A stretch of DNA of 43,318 bases from Acidobacteriota bacterium (GTDB taxonomy: Bacteria > Acidobacteriota > UBA6911): the NCBI GenBank assembly GCA_031271905.1, contig JAISUT010000046.1, positions 1 through 43,318 of the forward strand, in the 5' to 3' direction. The notes below the pieces were generated by a model. That model was given only the letters and a program-made list of their open reading frames with translations. It was not told the DNA's origin and ran no database searches. Below are positions 1 to 42,525 of this stretch, piece by piece. A program made the position numbers and the translations under genes. The number at the start of each line of letters is the position of its first letter. Within the stretch, counting starts at the first letter, position 1.

Positions 1-2
1 TT

Positions 3-35
3 GAGACGTTGAAAGAGAAGCTGTCCGTGCATTAA
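3..35 (+). CDS. possible 3' end of an upstream gene (partial)
   Basis: The frame entering from the left edge reads ETLKEKLSVH and then stops at TAA. Only ten residues are visible, so no family can be named and this may be a chance open frame. It is listed because the window edge could cut a real gene here. Confidence 0.2.
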   Translation, partial: ETLKEKLSVH

Positions 36-85
36 CGGCTGCCGATTCGCATGGGGCGTTTCAAAAACGACAGGTCGGAGGCGCA

Positions 86-140
86 TATAGAGTCTTTCCA
101 CAAACCATCAAATTGTCAGTCGCCCGCCGTTAAACCGCCG
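86..140 (+). repeat. left arm of ~55-bp imperfect inverted repeat
   Basis: The stretch carrying AAACCATCAAATT and CCGTTAAACCG reappears in reverse complement at about 991-1048, with most positions conserved. The two arms bracket about 0.85 kb that contains the small secreted Cys protein. The right arm runs into the first codons upstream of the metal-binding lipoprotein gene. Confidence 0.6.
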
Positions 141-551
141 TTTTGCGCCCGTCTTGTGTCTGTGCCTTTAGACGCATTCAGACGCCTTTATCGGCTCGCG
201 TCCCCTTCGTCCGTCTGCGGATGCCTTGCGTACCCCCCCCCTTCGGGGAGACGGGTTCGCGGCTCGTCAATTCCTTGGATTGCTTAGAGATGGCGGCGGT
301 CGTCGTTCCCATGGTGCCTTGTCCTGCGTTCCAAACCTTTCCACGAGGCTTCGTCCGGCGCTTTCCGCGGAGGGGCGCGCCGGGTTCGCGCGTCCGTAAC
401 GCTTGCCGGATGCGTGTCTCGTTTATAATATGCGACTCATCATGCTCGCTTCCGTCATGGGAACGCAGGCGCGAGCACCGGCGTTCCCAGGCTAGGCGCG
501 CCCGCTTTCGTCCCTGTAGTCCCTTTAGTTCCTGTAGGAATCTGCCAACGA

Positions 552-1064: not shown

Positions 1065-2030
1065 ATGAAGAATATTTTTAGCAAACCCATATTGGTGGTT
1101 ATTTCAGTCGTTTTGTTGGCGGTCGGATGCGGCACAAACAGGAAAAACGACGGGGTACGGCTGACGGTCATTTCGACGATATTCCCCGGATATGATTTTT
1201 CGAGGGCGCTGACAAAAGACATCGCTGGCATAGACTTGAAGATGCTTTTGAAGCCGGGAGGCGAAAGCCACTCCTACGAACCTTCCCCGCAAGATATTAT
1301 CGACATAGAAAATGCCGACGTCTTCATCTATGTCGGTGGAGAGTCCGACGCCTGGGTGGATGACTTGCTCACGGGGATAGACGCCAAAAAACTGAGGACG
1401 GTCAAACTCATGGATTTGGTGAGTGTGAAAGAAGAGGAGTTGACGTCCGGGATGCAGGATGAAGAGCGCAAAGAAGGCAAAGACGAAGAACCTTCTGAGA
1501 TAGAATACGACGAACATGTCTGGACCTCGCCCGTGAATGCGATGAAAATCGTCAACGGCATCAACGATGTGCTGGTTGAAATCGATCCTGAAAACGCAGA
1601 AAGTTATAGGAAGAATGCCGACGAATATATCAAAGAATTGAAATCCTTGGATGAAAACTTCAAGAAAATAACAAGCGAGGGAAACCGAAAGAAGTTGATA
1701 TTCGGCGACAGGTTCCCGTTCAGGTATTTCGCCGATGAATACGGGCTGGTTTATGACGCCGCCTTCCCAGGGTGCTCAACCGAAACGGAAGCCAGCGCCA
1801 AGACAATCGCGACTTTGATAGACGAAGTCAAACAAGAGAAAATACCGGTGGTGTTCTATATCGAATTTTCCAACCAAAAAATCGCCGACACCATAAAAGA
1901 AGCGTCAAACACCCAAACCAGGCTATTCCATTCCACGCATAATATAAGCAAGGCCGATTGGGAAAAAGGCGTGACGTATATCGACTTGATGAAGGCGAAC
2001 GCCGAAGTGTTAAAAGAGGCGGTGCGGTAA
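1065..2030 (+). CDS. zinc/manganese ABC transporter, substrate-binding lipoprotein
   Basis: A ZnuA/TroA-family (cluster A-I) periplasmic metal-binding protein of 321 residues. The start at 1065 follows an AGGA site and gives a basic N-terminus, a hydrophobic core and the lipobox LAVGC, so it should be a lipoprotein. Family landmarks are the metal-ligand His in GGESHSYEPSPQD, a short acidic loop rich in Glu/Lys instead of the usual His-rich loop, DEHVWTSP, and FGDRFPFRYFADEYG followed by FPGCSTETEAS. The last is a signature shared with Gram-positive-type metal binders. It overlaps the ATPase gene in a TAATG junction. Zinc is more likely than manganese from the sequence type, but this is not certain. 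The gene is AT-richer than the core genes, which suggests transfer. Confidence 0.9.
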   Translation: MKNIFSKPILVVISVVLLAVGCGTNRKNDGVRLTVISTIFPGYDFSRALTKDIAGIDLKMLLKPGGESHSYEPSPQDIIDIENADVFIYVGGESDAWVDDLLTGIDAKKLRTVKLMDLVSVKEEELTSGMQDEERKEGKDEEPSEIEYDEHVWTSPVNAMKIVNGINDVLVEIDPENAESYRKNADEYIKELKSLDENFKKITSEGNRKKLIFGDRFPFRYFADEYGLVYDAAFPGCSTETEASAKTIATLIDEVKQEKIPVVFYIEFSNQKIADTIKEASNTQTRLFHSTHNISKADWEKGVTYIDLMKANAEVLKEAVR

Positions 2031-2743
2031 TGGCGCTTGTATGTTGCGAAAACTTAACCATAGGGTACGAAGGGGTTCCCGTCGTCGGCAACCTCGGTTT
2101 TCAGATAGAACCGGGGGACTGCCTGTATATAGTCGGCGAAAACGGGTCTGGAAAAAGCACTTTGGTGAAAACCATCTTGGGCCTCATGAAAGCTATCGGC
2201 GGGACGATAACTTTTGACGAATCGGTGAACAGGTTCGGAATCGGGTATTTGCCGCAAATCAACAACAACCAGAAAAATTTTCCCGCTTCCGTCCTTGAAG
2301 TGGTTTTGTCCGGGTGTTTGAATAAAAAAGGCTTGACGCCGACATTCAACAAAGCGGACAAAGAATTGGTCGCAACGAATCTTGAAAAGCTGAACATCTT
2401 GGATTTGCGAAACAAATGTTTCGCAGAATTGTCCGGCGGGCAGAAACGGCGGGTGTTGCTGGCGCGGGCGCTGTGCTCCATGGAAAAGCTGTTGATCTTG
2501 GACGAACCCTTGGCGGGACTGGACCCCAAGGCCCAGATGGAATTTTACAAGACGCTGGAAGATCTCAACGAAAAGGAGCGGATGACAATCGTGGTCGTGT
2601 CGCACGACCTGCAAAACGCCCTAAAATACGGGAAGCATGTCTTGCACTTGGCGGGCGACGTTACATTTTGGGGCGGTGTGGCAGAGTATAAAAACAACGC
2701 GCTGGGCGCATATTTTTCAGGAGGCGTCCGCTATGATGGATGA
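2030..2743 (+). CDS. zinc/manganese ABC transporter, ATPase
   Basis: A 237-residue ABC ATPase of the ZnuC/MntB type. Walker A is GENGSGKST (about residue 35), the signature is LSGGQKRR, Walker B is LLILDEP, and the H-loop is VVSHD. It begins inside the stop of the binding-protein gene (TAATG), indicating translational coupling, and its 3' end overlaps the permease gene by 11 bp. It powers uptake through the permease that follows. A longer upstream reading frame exists, but it lies inside the preceding gene. Confidence 0.93.
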   Translation: MALVCCENLTIGYEGVPVVGNLGFQIEPGDCLYIVGENGSGKSTLVKTILGLMKAIGGTITFDESVNRFGIGYLPQINNNQKNFPASVLEVVLSGCLNKKGLTPTFNKADKELVATNLEKLNILDLRNKCFAELSGGQKRRVLLARALCSMEKLLILDEPLAGLDPKAQMEFYKTLEDLNEKERMTIVVVSHDLQNALKYGKHVLHLAGDVTFWGGVAEYKNNALGAYFSGGVRYDG

Positions 2744-3590
2744 AATCATGGAGATGTTTTCTTATCCGTTCATCGTCAGGGCGGTGGTTGTCGGCGTCAT
2801 GGTTTCTTTATGCGCGTCCCTTCTGGGCGTCAACTTGGTCTTGAAAAGATACGCGAACATCGGAGACGGACTGTCGCATGTCGGTTTTGGAGCCCTGTCC
2901 ATTGCTTTGTCATTAAATGCCCTGCCCGCCATGACAAAGTATTTCAGGATAGAGCCGTTGCCGTTTACCATCGTCATGGTCGTGCTTTTAGCTTTCCTTA
3001 TTTTAAGGATCAGCGAAAACAGCAAGATAAACAGCGATTCCGCTATCGCCTTGGTTTCCACGGCGTCCTTTACCATAGGCGTGATGTTCATCTCAATGAC
3101 GACGGGGATGAACACCGATGTATGCAACACCCTGTTCGGAACGATCCTGGCGATGAGCAAGCGCGATGTTTATTTAAGCGTCGTGCTGTCGGCTGTAGTG
3201 CTGTTTCTGTATATATTTTTCTATCACAAGATATTCGCGATCACATTCGATGAGAATTTTGCGAGGGCGACGGGGATACGGGTGAATATATACAACATGC
3301 TGCTGGCGCTGCTCACAGCCTTTACGATTGTTTTGGGCATGAGGATAATGGGAAGTTTGCTGATCTCCAGCATTGTCGTCATACCCGCGTTGTCATCGAT
3401 GCGGCTATTCAAGACATACAAGCTGGTGATCGTCAGTTCCGCTGTTTTGTCGGTTGTTTGTTTCCTAGTCGGAATCACAATATCGTATATGAACAAGACG
3501 CCTACGGGTGCCAGTGTCGTCGCCGTCAATTTAACGGTCTTTTTCCTGGTGTCGGCGACGGCATACTTCAAAAGGAGCATACTGCGGTGA
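2733..3590 (+). CDS. zinc/manganese ABC transporter, permease
   Basis: A 285-residue ABC-3 family (ZnuB/TroC-like) membrane permease with about eight hydrophobic segments. The start at 2733 follows AGGAGGC and overlaps the ATPase gene. The conserved core includes GVNLVLKRYANIGDGLSHVGFGALS near residues 35-60 and GMRIMGSLLISSIVVIPA near the C-terminal third. An internal 190-bp piece (2887-3076) recurs at 5719-5908 with an identical protein sequence. Its stop overlaps the GTG start of the lipoprotein gene, so all four genes form one coupled operon. Confidence 0.92.
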   Translation: MMDEIMEMFSYPFIVRAVVVGVMVSLCASLLGVNLVLKRYANIGDGLSHVGFGALSIALSLNALPAMTKYFRIEPLPFTIVMVVLLAFLILRISENSKINSDSAIALVSTASFTIGVMFISMTTGMNTDVCNTLFGTILAMSKRDVYLSVVLSAVVLFLYIFFYHKIFAITFDENFARATGIRVNIYNMLLALLTAFTIVLGMRIMGSLLISSIVVIPALSSMRLFKTYKLVIVSSAVLSVVCFLVGITISYMNKTPTGASVVAVNLTVFFLVSATAYFKRSILR

Positions 3591-4057
3591 AAAAATTACT
3601 TTTCCTTGTTTGTGTTTTGGCGATCGGATGCGGCGGCAACGGTATGAATACGGGAGCGAAAAACAACGGCGCGGATTCAAGCGAAGGAAGACAACAGGGT
3701 GGCAACGACGCCAAGGTGATTCGCGACAACGTGTTTATCCAAATGACCAACGACATGTATCTAAACCCCGAAGACTACCAAGATCAGAATCTAGAGATAG
3801 CGGGGTTGATATACATGGAAGACTATGGACGGGGAAAACATTATTACATCGTCAGAAAAACCCCCGGATGCTGCGGTAACGACGGCCTTGCGGGTCTAGA
3901 AATCCGTTATGACGGCGCGATGCCGGAAGACGATTCTTGGGTGACAGGAAAGGGCATTTGGAAGAAGGCTCCCGAATCCACGTATCATGGATGGATTTTA
4001 TCCTTGTATTCCCTTGAAAAAGGACCGAGGGGGAACGAATACCTGGATTACAATTAG
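3587..4057 (+). CDS. operon-associated lipoprotein, DUF1980/YcgQ-C-like
   Basis: A 156-residue lipoprotein. The GTG start at 3587 overlaps the permease stop and follows AAAGGAG. The signal peptide ends in the lipobox LAIGC. After a Gly/Asn/Lys linker comes a compact domain with DQNLEIAGLIYME, a CC pair in TPGCCGNDGLAGLEI and DDSWVTGKGI. The pattern of a beta-barrel-like fold with a central Cys pair resembles the C-terminal domain of the TIGR03943/DUF1980 (YcgQ) proteins that often travel with zinc transporters. That assignment is by recall and is tentative. A role in metal capture or handover outside the membrane is inference from the operon. Confidence 0.7.
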   Translation: MKKLLFLVCVLAIGCGGNGMNTGAKNNGADSSEGRQQGGNDAKVIRDNVFIQMTNDMYLNPEDYQDQNLEIAGLIYMEDYGRGKHYYIVRKTPGCCGNDGLAGLEIRYDGAMPEDDSWVTGKGIWKKAPESTYHGWILSLYSLEKGPRGNEYLDYN

Positions 4058-4547
4058 AGCCTGTCCGTTTATACGGTACCGCGGAGCCGAGGGCTGGCGG
4101 ACGCCGCGAGCCGACTGTGCCCCCCCCGACGTTTCCGCCAAGCAGACCGAACCCGCGCAGAAGAGGCAGGCTGTCGCCCTGCCCGACAGGTTCTTTCCCC
4201 GCAAGAAATGCTTCTGTTTCCCGGGGTCTCGGGATAGAATCGAGGTTCCCGTCGGTGCGGGGGCGTCCCTGCGGCGGGAAAAGTTTACATGACGGCCGTT
4301 TATCGGAAGCCGGGCTGGAACGGGGCGATCCGGAAAATGCAGTTTGTTCGCCCTATCCATCTGAACAGAGAAACGATCTTCACGGTAGAGCCTCCTGTCC
4401 TGACGCGCCGCATTGTTGCTGGAACCGTCGTGCCCAAACGCCGTTCGCCCTTTGACGACCTGAATCCCCCGTGCGCAGCGCAGGCATTTTACTACGGATC
4501 CATGCAAAAATCACGGCGGCGGCGCTACAGTCGGCGGTCGTTCCCTG
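4058..4547. other. intergenic region with dispersed repeat
   Basis: No gene is supported here; the frames are short and show no conserved motif. A small hairpin CTGTCG/CGACAG sits at 4171-4189, followed by TTCTTT, and could be a weak terminator for the metal operon. The stretch 4256-4362 is a copy of the accessory repeat described separately. Confidence 0.5.
4256..4362 (+). repeat. accessory dispersed repeat, copy 1
   Basis: About 107 bp that match 5908-6014 without gaps and with few mismatches; the last ~58 bp also match about 6702-6759. Shared core words are GGAAAATGCAG and TTCGCCCTATCCAT. It has no evident coding capacity. Confidence 0.8.
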
Positions 4548-5474
4548 TCAGGGCTCCAGCAACTCGGCGCGGAGCCGGGCCACGGTTCCGTCGTCGATGT
4601 CCAACCCCTCGCGGATGTAGTTTTCCATCGAGCCGTATCTTTCGACCGCCGCCGCACGCGCCGCGTCGATGTACGCGCCGTCCACGAGGTACATCCGCTC
4701 GTAGGGCTTCACGTCCACCTCCTCCGGCGCGACCCCTCGACCTTTCGCGATGTTGGCGCGAAGGTTTTCCAGATCCCGCCGGTTCTCTTCGCGGCGGTAG
4801 AAATTGGAAAGCAGGTAGTCTTCCCGCACCGTCTCCCACGGCACGCCAAGCAACGTCAAGACCACCGCGCCCCCTACGCCCGTCCGATCCTTCCCGGCGG
4901 TGCAGTGGAAGACCAGCGGCCGGTTTTGCGCCGCGGCCAGCTCGCGCACCAGCGTCGCGTACTCGCCGGTGTGCTCCAACATGATGCGCTCGGCCATCAA
5001 CTGCATGGAAACCGCGCCCGGTGCGGCGTCGCCCCCGCCGGGGGATGCCGCCGCCTGCCGCTCCACCCGCAACAGGCTCCCCAGTCCTATCGGCTGGTGC
5101 AGGAAGCGCACTCCACGCGGCAGACGGTCGAGGCCGCGGCTCTCAAGCTCGTCTTCGCCGCGAAAATCGATCACCGTGCGGACGCCCAGCTTTTCCAAGC
5201 GCGCCACATCCGCGTCGGAGAGCTTGCTGAGCTGCCCGGCGCGATAGACCTGCCCCCATTTCACATGGCGGCCGTCCGCGGTGCGGTAGCCCCCAAGGTC
5301 GCGGAAGTTGTCCTGCCCGTCGAGCTTGACCTGCCGCTGGGAATCGTCCGCCCCCGTCTGCTGACCGACTTCAACGTGCGCCGTTTTCTTCGCCGTGCAA
5401 GCGGCCGGCATCAAGGCGATCGGCAGGAACAGGCCGACAAGCAACCACTTTCCGCAAATCTCGAACATCGACAT
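4548..5474 (-). CDS. exported tyrosine-specific protein phosphatase-like protein
   Basis: A 308-residue protein with an N-terminal hydrophobic export segment ending near ALMPAAC, which is a poor lipobox or a Sec cleavage site. The mature part carries the NFRDLGGYRTADG motif and the P-loop HCTAGKDRTG (C-x5-R), both typical of the Y_phosphatase3 family (Mycobacterium PtpB-like, also related to dual-specificity and phosphoinositide phosphatases). An Asp general acid is likely but not assigned. The start at 5474 follows a G-rich ribosome site. Its neighbours are unrelated accessory genes and point to no substrate; a role outside the cytoplasm is inferred from the leader. Confidence 0.85.
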   Translation of the reverse strand: MSMFEICGKWLLVGLFLPIALMPAACTAKKTAHVEVGQQTGADDSQRQVKLDGQDNFRDLGGYRTADGRHVKWGQVYRAGQLSKLSDADVARLEKLGVRTVIDFRGEDELESRGLDRLPRGVRFLHQPIGLGSLLRVERQAAASPGGGDAAPGAVSMQLMAERIMLEHTGEYATLVRELAAAQNRPLVFHCTAGKDRTGVGGAVVLTLLGVPWETVREDYLLSNFYRREENRRDLENLRANIAKGRGVAPEEVDVKPYERMYLVDGAYIDAARAAAVERYGSMENYIREGLDIDDGTVARLRAELLEP

Positions 5475-5709: not shown

Positions 5710-5718
5710 CGTTCGCTA

Positions 5719-5908
5719 TTGGAGCTCTGTCTATTGCTTTGTCGTTAAATGCCCTGCCCGCCATGACAAAGTATTTCAGAATAGAGCCGTTGCCGTTTAC
5801 CATCGTCATGGTCGTGCTTTTGGCTTTCCTTATTTTAAGGATCAGCGAAAACAGCAAGATAAACAGCGATTCCGCCATCGCCTTGGTTTCCACGGCGTCC
5901 TTTACCAT
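5719..5908 (+). pseudogene. duplicated internal fragment of the metal permease gene
   Basis: These 190 bp align gap-free with 2887-3076 of the permease gene. I count six base differences in the comparison, and all six are third-position synonymous changes, so the encoded ~62 residues are identical. It has no start codon, no membrane-protein remainder and no ribosome site. At its 3' end it runs directly into the dispersed repeat at 5908. It cannot make a working transporter and is best read as a gene fragment captured by recombination. Confidence 0.9.
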
Positions 5909-6014
5909 GCGGGAGCGTCCCTGCGGCGGGAAAAGTTGACATGACGACCGTTTGTCGGAAGCCGGGATGGAACGGGGCGATCCGGAAAATGCAGTTTGTT
6001 CGCCCTATCCATCT
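5908..6014 (+). repeat. accessory dispersed repeat, copy 2
   Basis: Matches 4256-4362 base for base in register, with a handful of substitutions. Its left edge is exactly the end of the permease fragment, and its right edge lies about 60 bp before the HD-domain gene. Confidence 0.8.
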
Positions 6015-6075
6015 ACTGTTTCAGGAAGAGATTGGAACACGAGTTATTCTCCAGATAGGGGGAGTTGTAGTTAAG

Positions 6076-6636
6076 ATGTCGCATAAAATTGAAATGGAAC
6101 AGAAAATCAAAGAACTGGTTGAGCAAATCACTTCCCAACCATTTGTGGCAGATTTGAATAATCTTTACCGAGAGGGAATACACGGTATCGGCCACATATA
6201 TCGAGTGTTACTTCTTGTACAAAAACTTTGCGAGTTGGAGAAATGCCCTGTCTCGCAACGGCAAATATTAGAGTTTTGCGCTATTTTTCACGACATCGGA
6301 AGAACGGATGATGGTGTCGACGATTCACACGGACAAAACAGTATTGATATTCTGAAAGAGAAGCATTATTTTGGTTTGGCGCATTCCCTCATATTCGTTG
6401 ATTATGTCATTGTCAATCATTGCAAGAACGATAGAATCGCGTATGGCGACGTTAATAGATACGATTTTGAAAATGAACAGATTGGGGAAGCCCTTTATCT
6501 ATTGAAATTTTTCAAAGATTGCGATAATCTCGACCGATTCCGTCTCGGCGACTTTGATAAATCTTATTTGCGATTGCCTAATTCCCATAAACTCATAAAT
6601 ACGGCAGAAGAATTGAACAATAAAATCGACATCTAG
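6076..6636 (+). CDS. HD-domain phosphohydrolase-like protein
   Basis: A 186-residue soluble protein with the HD-superfamily pattern: His in GIGHIYRV, the paired His-Asp in CAIFHDIGR, then DSHGQNS and a later VNHCKND, followed by DCDNLDRFR near the C-terminus. These should bind one or two metal ions and hydrolyse a phosphoester, nucleotide or related substrate; the substrate cannot be told. I chose the ATG at 6076 because the upstream part of the frame lies in the dispersed repeat. The gene is markedly AT-richer than its neighbours and is flanked by repeat copies on both sides, so it is probably acquired. Confidence 0.75.
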   Translation: MSHKIEMEQKIKELVEQITSQPFVADLNNLYREGIHGIGHIYRVLLLVQKLCELEKCPVSQRQILEFCAIFHDIGRTDDGVDDSHGQNSIDILKEKHYFGLAHSLIFVDYVIVNHCKNDRIAYGDVNRYDFENEQIGEALYLLKFFKDCDNLDRFRLGDFDKSYLRLPNSHKLINTAEELNNKIDI

Positions 6637-6933
6637 CGAGCCGCAGAGAATTCGATTTTATGGAAAGAACAACGCATCGCCATTTTCCATTTTTCTGCAT
6701 CAGAAGCCGGGCGACGGGACGGGGCGAGCCGGAAAATGCAGCGTATTCGCCCTATCCATACGCAGATGCCGGAAAGTAGTATCTGGTGTTTTTCGTCTGC
6801 CCTACGGGGCTTGCAAGGGAGTGGTGCTTGTTTGGCGCACTCAAGCTTGCAAGGGCGCACGGGGCGCACGCCCCCCGCATCTGCTCGCGGCTGATGTGAC
6901 GGTCGCGGAATTGGTGTTCTCACGCCATGAATC
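6637..6933. other. intergenic region with repeat copy
   Basis: No gene seen. It holds the partial third copy of the dispersed repeat (about 6702-6759) and two GCTTGCAAGGG direct repeats at about 6809 and 6845. Confidence 0.5.
6702..6759 (+). repeat. accessory dispersed repeat, partial copy 3
   Basis: Covers the right half of the repeat (GAAGCCGGG ... GGAAAATGCAG ... TTCGCCCTATCCAT) and is more diverged than copies 1 and 2. It lies just downstream of the HD-domain gene. Confidence 0.65.
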
Positions 6934-14606: not shown

Positions 14607-14650
14607 AAAAGCGGCCCAAAGGGGAAACCCGATGGGCCGCTTTTGTTTTT
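14607..14650 (+). terminator. attenuator terminator of the aromatic operon
   Basis: AAAAGCGGCCCA (14607-14618) and TGGGCCGCTTTT (14633-14644) form a perfect 12-bp stem around a 14-base loop. The run TTTTGTTTTT follows at 14641-14650. It lies between the leader peptide and aroF. An alternative antiterminator pairing was not resolved by eye. Confidence 0.88.
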
Positions 14651-14735
14651 GGGGCCGTCGATGGACGGGCTCCGCGCACTGCGCCGGGGCGCGGAGCCCG
14701 TTCGGAAGCCGCGCCCCTCTTGGGAGAGAGATTCT

Positions 14736-16912: not shown

Positions 16913-17239
16913 CCGGCGACACGGCGCGCCCCAAAAGTTTTGACTTTGCTGAGGCTATGGGCATGGGTATACTTGCGCGCATGCTTGCTTGGGAGGGGGC
17001 GTGCGACAGTCCAAGCGTCGTCGCATATGGACGAGTCGATGATCGTCCGGATCAACGCCGTCGCGAAGGCGAAAAACGGTTTCCCTTTAAAGGGGACCTC
17101 TGAAAACCTCGCAGACAAGGCGTCGCCGCAGGTCGAAAAGCGGAGTTTGCCGAGGTGAATGAGCATTTTCGACCAAGGCGCGACGCAGCGTCCGGGGTTT
17201 TAGATGTTCCCTAAAATTAGGAAGGGAGGGGCAGGGGGG
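16913..17239. other. intergenic region with possible selD promoter and repeat
   Basis: No supported gene. TTGCTG (16946-16951) and TATACT (16968-16973), 16 bp apart, could be the selD promoter. The long form of the GGGAACC inverted-repeat element fills 17092-17211. The short frame beginning near 17034 mostly translates the repeat and is not a gene. Confidence 0.5.
17092..17211 (+). repeat. GGGAACC inverted-repeat element, long form
   Basis: Starts GGGGACCTCTGAAAACC and ends GGTTTTAGATGTTCCC, which are imperfect inverted repeats of each other. The inner ~57 bp are bounded by two CAAGGCG words and are absent from the short forms. It lies in the leader of selD. Confidence 0.8.
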
Positions 17240-18958: not shown

Positions 18959-19189
18959 ATGCGCGCCATCGCCGATCTTGCCGGGAAGGCCGCCGTCGTC
19001 GCGCTGAAGTCCTATAAGCGTTTCATCTCCCCCTGCCTGCCGCACGCCTGCCGATTCGAACCGACCTGTTCCGTCTATATGCGCGAAGCTATAGAGAAAA
19101 AAGGCTTGGTCAAGGGCGTTTGCCTGGGTGTGCGCCGGTTGCTCAAATGCCACCCGTTTCACGAAGGGGGCTTTGACCCGGTGCCGTAG
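18959..19189 (+). CDS. yidD: YidD, membrane protein insertion efficiency factor
   Basis: A 76-residue protein with an N-terminal amphipathic/hydrophobic part and the hallmark [28 protein letters not shown], then [20 protein letters not shown]. The start at 18959 follows ACAGGAGGCG. It works with YidC next door in inserting inner-membrane proteins. Its stop codon overlaps by one base the short GGGAACC repeat element. Confidence 0.96.
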
Positions 19190-19251
19190 GGAGCCTTTAA
19201 AAACCTCGCAGACAAGGCGCAACGCAGCGTCCGGGTTTTTTAGAGGTTCCC
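19189..19251 (+). repeat. GGGAACC inverted-repeat element, short form
   Basis: 63 bp with near-perfect inverted ends GGGAGCCTTTAAAAACC and GGTTTTTTAGAGGTTCCC. Compared with 17092-17211, the inner segment between the CAAGGCG words is missing. It begins on the last base of the yidD stop codon and could act as a transcript hairpin between yidD and yidC. Confidence 0.85.
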
Positions 19252-19367
19252 CATAGTGGTAGGGGCGGGGGCTGTTCGCCCGAAGTTAGCCGTCCGCGTT
19301 TATAAACCGGCGGTCGCGGTTCTGCGCGTAAGCAGTCGCGGTCACCCCATCTTTTCTTTGCAATCAA

Positions 19368-25965: not shown

Positions 25966-26542
25966 GATGCTGTTCTTCCTCGCAAATGTTGAAAATGTTG
26001 ACGTGTCGCACCGCCCCGTGCGCCGAACCATTCCGTCGGACGTGGGCGGTTTTGTTTTTCGTTCTTTTCAGAAGATTTGTAAAAAGCGCGGTCGGATCCG
26101 GCCTGGGGCGGCCCGCGCAAGATGGTGTCGGACGGCAGACGGACAGACGCCCGCCGAAGGGGTGTGTCGATCAACGGTTCTCCTTTCCAAAGGGAACCCC
26201 TAAAAACCCCGGACGCTGCGTTGCGCCTTGATCGGCGAGGTTTTAGAGGCTCCCCCAAATGGGAGGCATGGCCGTTTCCCGCCATACCCTGTCGTCCATG
26301 TCCCATGGCCGGCGGCTGTAGGGTCTCATGGATCGGAGAGATGCGTCCCGACGTTCGTCGGAGCGGTTTCACATCATCCTATATGTATTTTTACAAGGAC
26401 AATGTACTCTTAAAGATGAAAATAATAGGGTGCCGGGGAGATTTTGTCAATAGGGGCGATGGGAACCATCCAGAACCATCCAGATGCCGGGGCGAACGGT
26501 CGAAAGCGGTCATGGCGTCCCGGCGCATGGCGCCCCGGTCGG
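25966..26542. other. intergenic region with short inverted-repeat element
   Basis: No supported gene on either strand. Contains a reverse-oriented short GGGAACC element (26192-26254) and an AT-richer patch near 26380-26450. The direct pair GAACCATCCA occurs at about 26462 and 26473. The promoter of the aldehyde dehydrogenase should lie at its left end but was not fixed. Confidence 0.5.
26192..26254 (-). repeat. GGGAACC inverted-repeat element, short form, reverse orientation
   Basis: 63 bp with the same ends and the same central words (GACGCTGCGTTGCGCCTTG on this strand) as the copy at 19189-19251, inverted. It lies about 230 bp upstream of the aldehyde dehydrogenase start. Confidence 0.85.
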
Positions 26543-41881: not shown

Positions 41882-42340
41882 ATGCTCTATTACGCGGTAG
41901 TGGCGTTGCATGTCATCGTATGCATCATTTTAGTGCTGGTCGTGCTCTTGCAGTCTGGCAAAGGAGCCGACTTGGCGGGTGCTTTTGGCGGCGGCGCGAC
42001 GCAGACGGCTTTCGGCAGCCGCGGGCCGGCGTCGTTCCTGTCGCGCATGACGACGGTTGCGGCCGTGATTTTCATGGTGACCAGCGTCGGATTGTCGATG
42101 ATGACGGAACGGCGTGCGGCGGACGACAGCTCGATCTTGGACACCGGCAAGGCGACGGTGCAGGAGGAGAAGAAGCAGGAGGGTGCAGACGGCAAGTCTG
42201 ACAACGCCGCACCTTCGCCTGCGCAGATCGAAGAGCAGATGAGGCAGATACAAGAAAAGCAGCAGTCCGCGCCGGCAACGACGCCGACGCCGGACAATGC
42301 GGCGCCTGACGCGGCGGCTCCGGCTGAAGGGAACCGCTGA
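41882..42340 (+). CDS. secG: preprotein translocase subunit SecG
   Basis: A 152-residue inner-membrane protein. It has two membrane helices (MLYYAVVALHVIVCIILVLVVLLQSGKG and the MTTVAAVIFMVTSVGLSMM region) and the signature GADLAGAFGGGATQTAFGSRG in between. The tail from about residue 75 is long, Glu/Lys/Ala-rich and variable, as in many SecG. Start 41882 follows GGGAAGGG. Its last codons and stop (42338-42340) lie inside a GGGAACC repeat element, so that element may have supplied the stop. Confidence 0.94.
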   Translation: MLYYAVVALHVIVCIILVLVVLLQSGKGADLAGAFGGGATQTAFGSRGPASFLSRMTTVAAVIFMVTSVGLSMMTERRAADDSSILDTGKATVQEEKKQEGADGKSDNAAPSPAQIEEQMRQIQEKQQSAPATTPTPDNAAPDAAAPAEGNR

Positions 42341-42450
42341 AAAGCTCGCAGACAAGGCGTCGCCGCGGATCGAAAAGCGGAGTTTGCCGAGGCAAATGAG
42401 CGTTTTCGATCAAGGCGCAACACAGTATCCGGAGTCTTTCGCAGGTTCCC
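42329..42450 (+). repeat. GGGAACC inverted-repeat element, long form
   Basis: 122 bp beginning GGGAACCGCTGAAAAGC and ending CTTTCGCAGGTTCCC, with the same inner segment as 17092-17211 (AAAAGCGGAGTTTGCCGAGG). It contains the secG stop codon. Confidence 0.85.
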
Positions 42451-42525
42451 TGAAAAGCCTGCGGAGACGCCTGCCAGCAATAGATTTGCGGTGGGATAGA
42501 GGTTTTCTAGGAAATAGTTTTACAA

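Follow-up and report, generated by a model that had tools for sequence, protein, structure and literature searches.

How did a piece from the inside of a permease gene come to lie, in direct orientation, only 2.8 kb from the intact gene, and why does it differ from that gene at silent sites only? In the window (the whole stretch of 43,318 nucleotides analysed here), positions 5719-5908 repeat positions 2887-3076 at an offset of 2832, with 96% identity over 190 bp and a BLAST E-value of 2.6e-87, far beyond chance. The six differences lie in the codons at 2892 (GCC/GCT), 2898 (TCC/TCT), 2910 (TCA/TCG), 2946 (AGG/AGA), 2988 (TTA/TTG) and 3042 (GCT/GCC); each is a third-position transition and each is synonymous, which gives a dS of 0.147 and a dN of 0 over 45 synonymous and 141 nonsynonymous sites (NG86). 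The duplicated stretch is an internal part of a gene of 285 codons, and it combines high partial-length identity to a functional gene with truncation, as pseudogene relics do, and a concentration of differences at silent sites (six silent to no nonsynonymous), as diverged functional alleles do. Automatic extension by repeat search and BLAST moves the left edge to 2881/5713 and brings in two transversions (2884 and 2886), which would be Gly>Ala and Phe>Ile; only four of the six added bases match, which slightly favours chance over homology (approximately 2.4:1, an estimate). A left boundary at 5719 is reasonable but not certain, the homology of 5713-5718 being ambiguous. The original prediction had described a 190-bp copy with six differences, all synonymous, and had named nonsynonymous changes as one observation that would overturn it: our recount agrees inside these boundaries, where no such change was found, and the two potential ones stand just outside the left edge.

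The weight of the silent-only pattern depends on the null chosen. If all six changes had hit a dead copy at equal rates, the probability of all being silent is 2e-4, and the same one-branch null restricted to transitions gives up to 2e-3. Since the intact gene also changes silently, the correct null allows changes on both branches, and for a fragment dead since the split the probability is then 0.0035-0.021, depending on transition bias, a thin statistic because it rests on six differences only; counting the two edge mismatches raises it to approximately 0.04-0.1 (a binomial estimate from the site counts). The divergence of the adjoining repeat R, described below, predicts an estimated three to four nonsynonymous changes on an equally old dead branch, and none is present inside 2887-3076. 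Polarising the six sites by homologues was abandoned, as the nearest are 66% identical at the protein level and too distant. These comparisons favour, without being decisive, a divergence that accumulated mostly during coding, in which case the permease would once have had a second functional version, either an allele or a paralogue. The earlier argument that a dead fragment collects random changes holds as to the silent excess, but it ignored the silent changes of the intact gene, and divergence during coding is favoured less strongly than had been implied.

The copied unit does not stop at 5908, as had been proposed, but runs directly into R', a left-truncated copy of the repeat R that continues to 6014 (Table 1). 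R' is 95% identical to the R of the neighbouring operon, its last 46 bp being the same, and at most 88% identical over that stretch to all other R copies in the genome. The segment 5719-6014 therefore equals the operon's own permease-to-R stretch minus 3077-4255. Since no other R copy matches R' as well as that of the operon, this linked noncoding sequence identifies the source locus and suggests that the fragment is a relic of another version of it.

Table 1. Features at and around the permease fragment, in window coordinates
Feature	Position	Strand	Remarks
ZnuA-type metal-binding protein gene, first in operon	1065..2030	+	Pfam ZnuA E 4e-71
ABC transporter ATPase gene of operon	2030..2743	+	Pfam ABC_tran E 2e-27
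Intact ABC-3 (ZnuB/TroC-type) permease gene, parent-type copy	2733..3590	+	Pfam ABC-3 E 3e-55
Intact permease stretch duplicated in fragment	2887..3076	+	Codons 52-115
Last operon gene, small lipoprotein-like protein (DUF1980_C)	3599..4057	+	Pfam E 1e-9
Full-length dispersed repeat R	4065..4361	+	Approximately 297 bp; starts 8 bp past the operon's last stop codon
Tyrosine phosphatase gene, between operon's R and relic	4548..5474	-	Pfam Y_phosphatase3 E 3e-66
Uncertain left edge of relic	5713..5718	+	4/6 bases match 2881-2886
Permease fragment	5719..5908	+	190 bp, 6 synonymous differences, dS 0.147, dN 0
R', left-truncated R copy fused to fragment	5908..6014	+	Nearest 4256-4362 (95%), next best 88%
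HD-domain gene flanking relic	6076..6636	+	Pfam HD E 2e-5; G+C 39%
Right-end piece of R (positions 238-296)	6699..6759	+	Repeat match

Approximately 20 further full or partial copies of R, in both orientations, are scattered over many contigs of the genome (e.g., L011:3540-3851, L014:2293-2604 and L016:1-297), and many are left-truncated and share the right end ...CGCCCTATCCAT, whereas the last 60 bp, which fold into a hairpin, also occur alone. A boundary of R at the end of the fragment proved to be an artefact of the query, since the repeat reaches left to 4065. Mixed orientation, truncations and scatter over contigs rule against an integron attC site or gene cassette. A search of 37 further genomes of the class found no R; a widespread element was rejected on this result, and R is to all appearances species-restricted among the sampled genomes. 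R and R' differ at five positions. Outgroup comparison with 14-21 further R copies at each site places two of these changes on the intact branch and two on the relic branch, and the fifth probably belongs to the relic branch as well; both copies have thus changed. In the draft assembly, many contigs terminate within or close to an R copy. Another family of dispersed repeats is present in the window at 17090-17231, 19189-19270, 26192-26254 and 42327-42455, and also on L012, L016, L018 and L019. Window positions 1-224 are 98% identical to another contig start (G000:C10:52-275), so that the contig break falls in a duplicated stretch.

The neighbouring operon has a G+C content of 48.5%, whereas most of the window has 66%, and at the DNA level it is absent from the nine other genomes of the genus and from the rest of the family; 296 other genomes sampled from the phylum hold only distant homologues (33-36%), and its nearest protein relatives (up to 66%) belong to Synergistaceae, Treponema and Clostridia, many of them MAGs. 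Low G+C, absence from the genus and distant nearest homologues together indicate a locus with a transfer history, the operon having probably been acquired horizontally. A FitA/PIN-type toxin-antitoxin pair follows the relic and the HD-domain gene. The own genome (99.8% complete) yielded no other permease copy, and the exact full-length source that the original prediction called for, a gene with the fragment's variants, was found neither there nor in 14 family members, the 296 other phylum genomes or viral contigs, with the species itself represented by a single strain. As to a present function, the fragment is internal and has no start region of its own, Rfam gave no match to it, Pfam gave none to the 126-aa ORF that lies there, and no conserved similar sequence was found in relatives. 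A functional small ORF or RNA was rejected on these grounds; the sequence suggests no function, and the relic appears to be non-functional now.

Other fragments of the same genome bear on the origin of the permease relic. We surveyed approximately 836 kb, partly chosen for R copies, which makes the counts a biased rate. A 236-bp piece of the 3' end of uvrC (97% identity) lies 3.5 kb from intact uvrC with an omega of 0.06, five silent changes to one nonsynonymous, and a codon changed twice (GTG/GCC). These direct repeats (L022:2380-2615 and 5955-6190, or G000:C61:65379-65614 and 68954-69189) enclose 3.3 kb that hold an R piece and two genes named by eye, a PIN-like toxin gene and a DUF1016-like one, an arrangement that resembles the insertion of a small island at the 3' end of uvrC; relatives were compared for uvrC beside tonB without the island, and no synteny was found. 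From rpoD, a 265-bp part of the 3' region (90% identity, dS 0.38, omega 0.11) lies on another contig, fused in frame behind a von Willebrand-like ORF (L011:8312-8576, compared with G000:C64:45730-45994). Outgroups place nine changes, all silent at the codon level, on the intact rpoD branch, and six nonsynonymous and four silent ones on the fragment branch; a copy dead since the split would be expected to carry several times more changes than the silent ones of intact rpoD, so the roughly equal branch totals suggest that the fragment remained coding for most of its history and decayed later. Both rpoD and uvrC are normally single-copy genes, and their diverged pieces therefore point to alleles from related strains. 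A 470-bp piece of a cyclase-like gene (named by eye; 88%, omega 0.41; L014:1824-2293, compared with G000:C64:172698-173167) breaks off exactly at base 1 of a full R copy.

Not all fragments appear to stem from diverged alleles. Three pieces of cysE in changed order (97-99% identity; L146:2470-2890 on G000:C10, compared with L019:1297-2113 on G000:C59), with an internal deletion between two GTCATCGGC motifs and two nonsynonymous changes among three (counted by eye), seem to be simple duplicates of recent date. On contig C23, a gene region of 93 bp is repeated exactly. A flagellin gene is cut after approximately 37 codons by a truncated R copy (L019:4949-5100, or G000:C59:35948-36100); R reads GGTGCGG at this junction, where the usual flagellin sequence would fit too. 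With the same sampling, 14 low-copy pairs were counted in 494 kb of the own genome (G000), some of them repeats or contig ends, compared with one in 400 kb and six in 338 kb of two family members (G012 and G005), a modest excess. In G005, which is of the same genus, a 123-bp exact repeat with its copies 4 kb apart (C8:10623-10745 and 14613-14735) is perhaps the same kind of local fragment.

Taken together, we consider it probable that a second haplotype of the adjacent ZnuABC-type operon left 5719-6014 behind as a relic without function, the scar of a recombination with one illegitimate end by which a diverged allele was imported or replaced. Two haplotypes would have diverged as functional alleles in closely related strains and been brought together in a single chromosome by a recombination event with homology on one side (in R or in the permease) and an illegitimate join on the other; either the resident allele would have been displaced by the incoming operon, or a piece of the foreign allele inserted, and the losing copy would then have been cut down to a scar without function. 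The permease/R' junction, with an overlap of approximately 1 bp of shared sequence at most, has the microhomology of an illegitimate junction, and the 107 bp shared by R and R' at 95% may have served as the homologous anchor. A search of the genome for Ku found none, so that recombination errors fit better than classical NHEJ, which we discarded as the route. The parallel uvrC and rpoD fragments, with their low omega values, lend support to this allele model. The replacement of the neighbouring operon that had been suggested earlier is accordingly a good explanation, R' linking the fragment to that locus, and the idea of a source other than the neighbouring gene survives in the form of a second allele or a local duplicate; a separate paralogue elsewhere does not, since R' ties the fragment to the operon.

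The local duplicate deserves consideration first. The operon together with R may have been duplicated in tandem within the lineage, both copies working for a while before one was reduced to a fragment. Spontaneous tandem duplication is common in bacteria; direct orientation, the short distance and the shared R would all follow from it, and silent-only divergence is expected while both copies work. The rest of a second operon, however, could be traced neither between 4362 and 5712 nor elsewhere in the genome, and the uvrC and rpoD fragments show the same coding-type divergence at genes for which a functional second copy is unlikely; we therefore regard such a duplication as unlikely here.

Quite improbable, in our assessment, is a piece of the neighbouring gene that was copied locally and dead from birth, its silent-only differences being due to luck and to silent changes of the intact gene. 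That gene does supply part of the silent changes, R having changed on both sides, the mismatches at 2884 and 2886 would be two nonsynonymous changes if they belong to the copy, and cysE provides examples of recent dead duplicates in this genome; yet six of six silent changes within 5719-5908 have a probability of only 0.0035-0.021 under this account, and the nonsynonymous changes predicted from R are missing inside 2887-3076. An assembly artefact, in which assembly across a repeat brought the variant of a coexisting strain into the contig, is very improbable, for while many draft contigs end in or near R and the identical last 46 bp of R and R' would make contig paths swappable there, k-mer confusion cannot produce a junction with an overlap of 1 bp or less, the flank at 5712 lies outside R, and comparable fragments occur far from the ends of long contigs (uvrC on C61).

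If the permease relic is indeed the scar of a second haplotype, as we favour, it is of an ordinary, known kind, and as an isolated case it would be unremarkable; its recurrence in the same genome adds some interest. A bolder proposal, which we hold to be doubtful, is that capture of this kind recurs in the lineage, without Ku: short stretches from diverged alleles of genes that it carries itself (permease, uvrC, rpoD and the cyclase gene), often beside truncated R, would be taken up from relatives in frequent natural events of illegitimate short-patch integration, which R possibly promotes. Were such short-patch capture true, alleles of extinct or unsampled strains could be read from the scars, and if all fragments were imported alleles, illegitimate DNA uptake could be counted from single genomes. 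Two features make such scars legible: the linked repeat names the source locus, and polarised silent and nonsilent changes separate the relic of a working allele from a copy dead on arrival.

Bacteria are known to recombine with homology at one end and an illegitimate join at the other (PMC3240628), a mode called homology-facilitated illegitimate recombination (de Vries and Wackernagel 2002, as cited in PMC2884548); it joins one end by homology and the other without it, as we propose for our relic, and leaves truncated, locally duplicated pieces and small indels. Here the process is inferred from one genome and its homologous end is uncertain. Such recombination is a proposed source of the displaced remnants that lie behind freshly inserted modules (PMC5361080), and in the T6SS immunity arrays of Vibrio cholerae (PMC5361080), as at rhs 3' ends, a module is inserted upstream and the remnant of the older allele stays behind, much as we envisage for the permease; the V. 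cholerae remnants, however, are often retained as useful immunity genes, whereas ours is an internal piece of 63 codons that suggests no function. Illegitimate recombination has also been proposed to make much of the small-scale diversity between strains (PMC2884548), and the small variable segments described there are likewise short illegitimate blocks without known mobile elements, but that work compared strains, whereas our block is read from one chromosome and is tied to a dispersed repeat. Similar in form are the gene relics and truncated pseudogenes found beside dispersed repeats, in which a truncated piece likewise adjoins a truncated repeat copy; what sets the permease relic apart from the usual ones is that its divergence from the parent is silent only.
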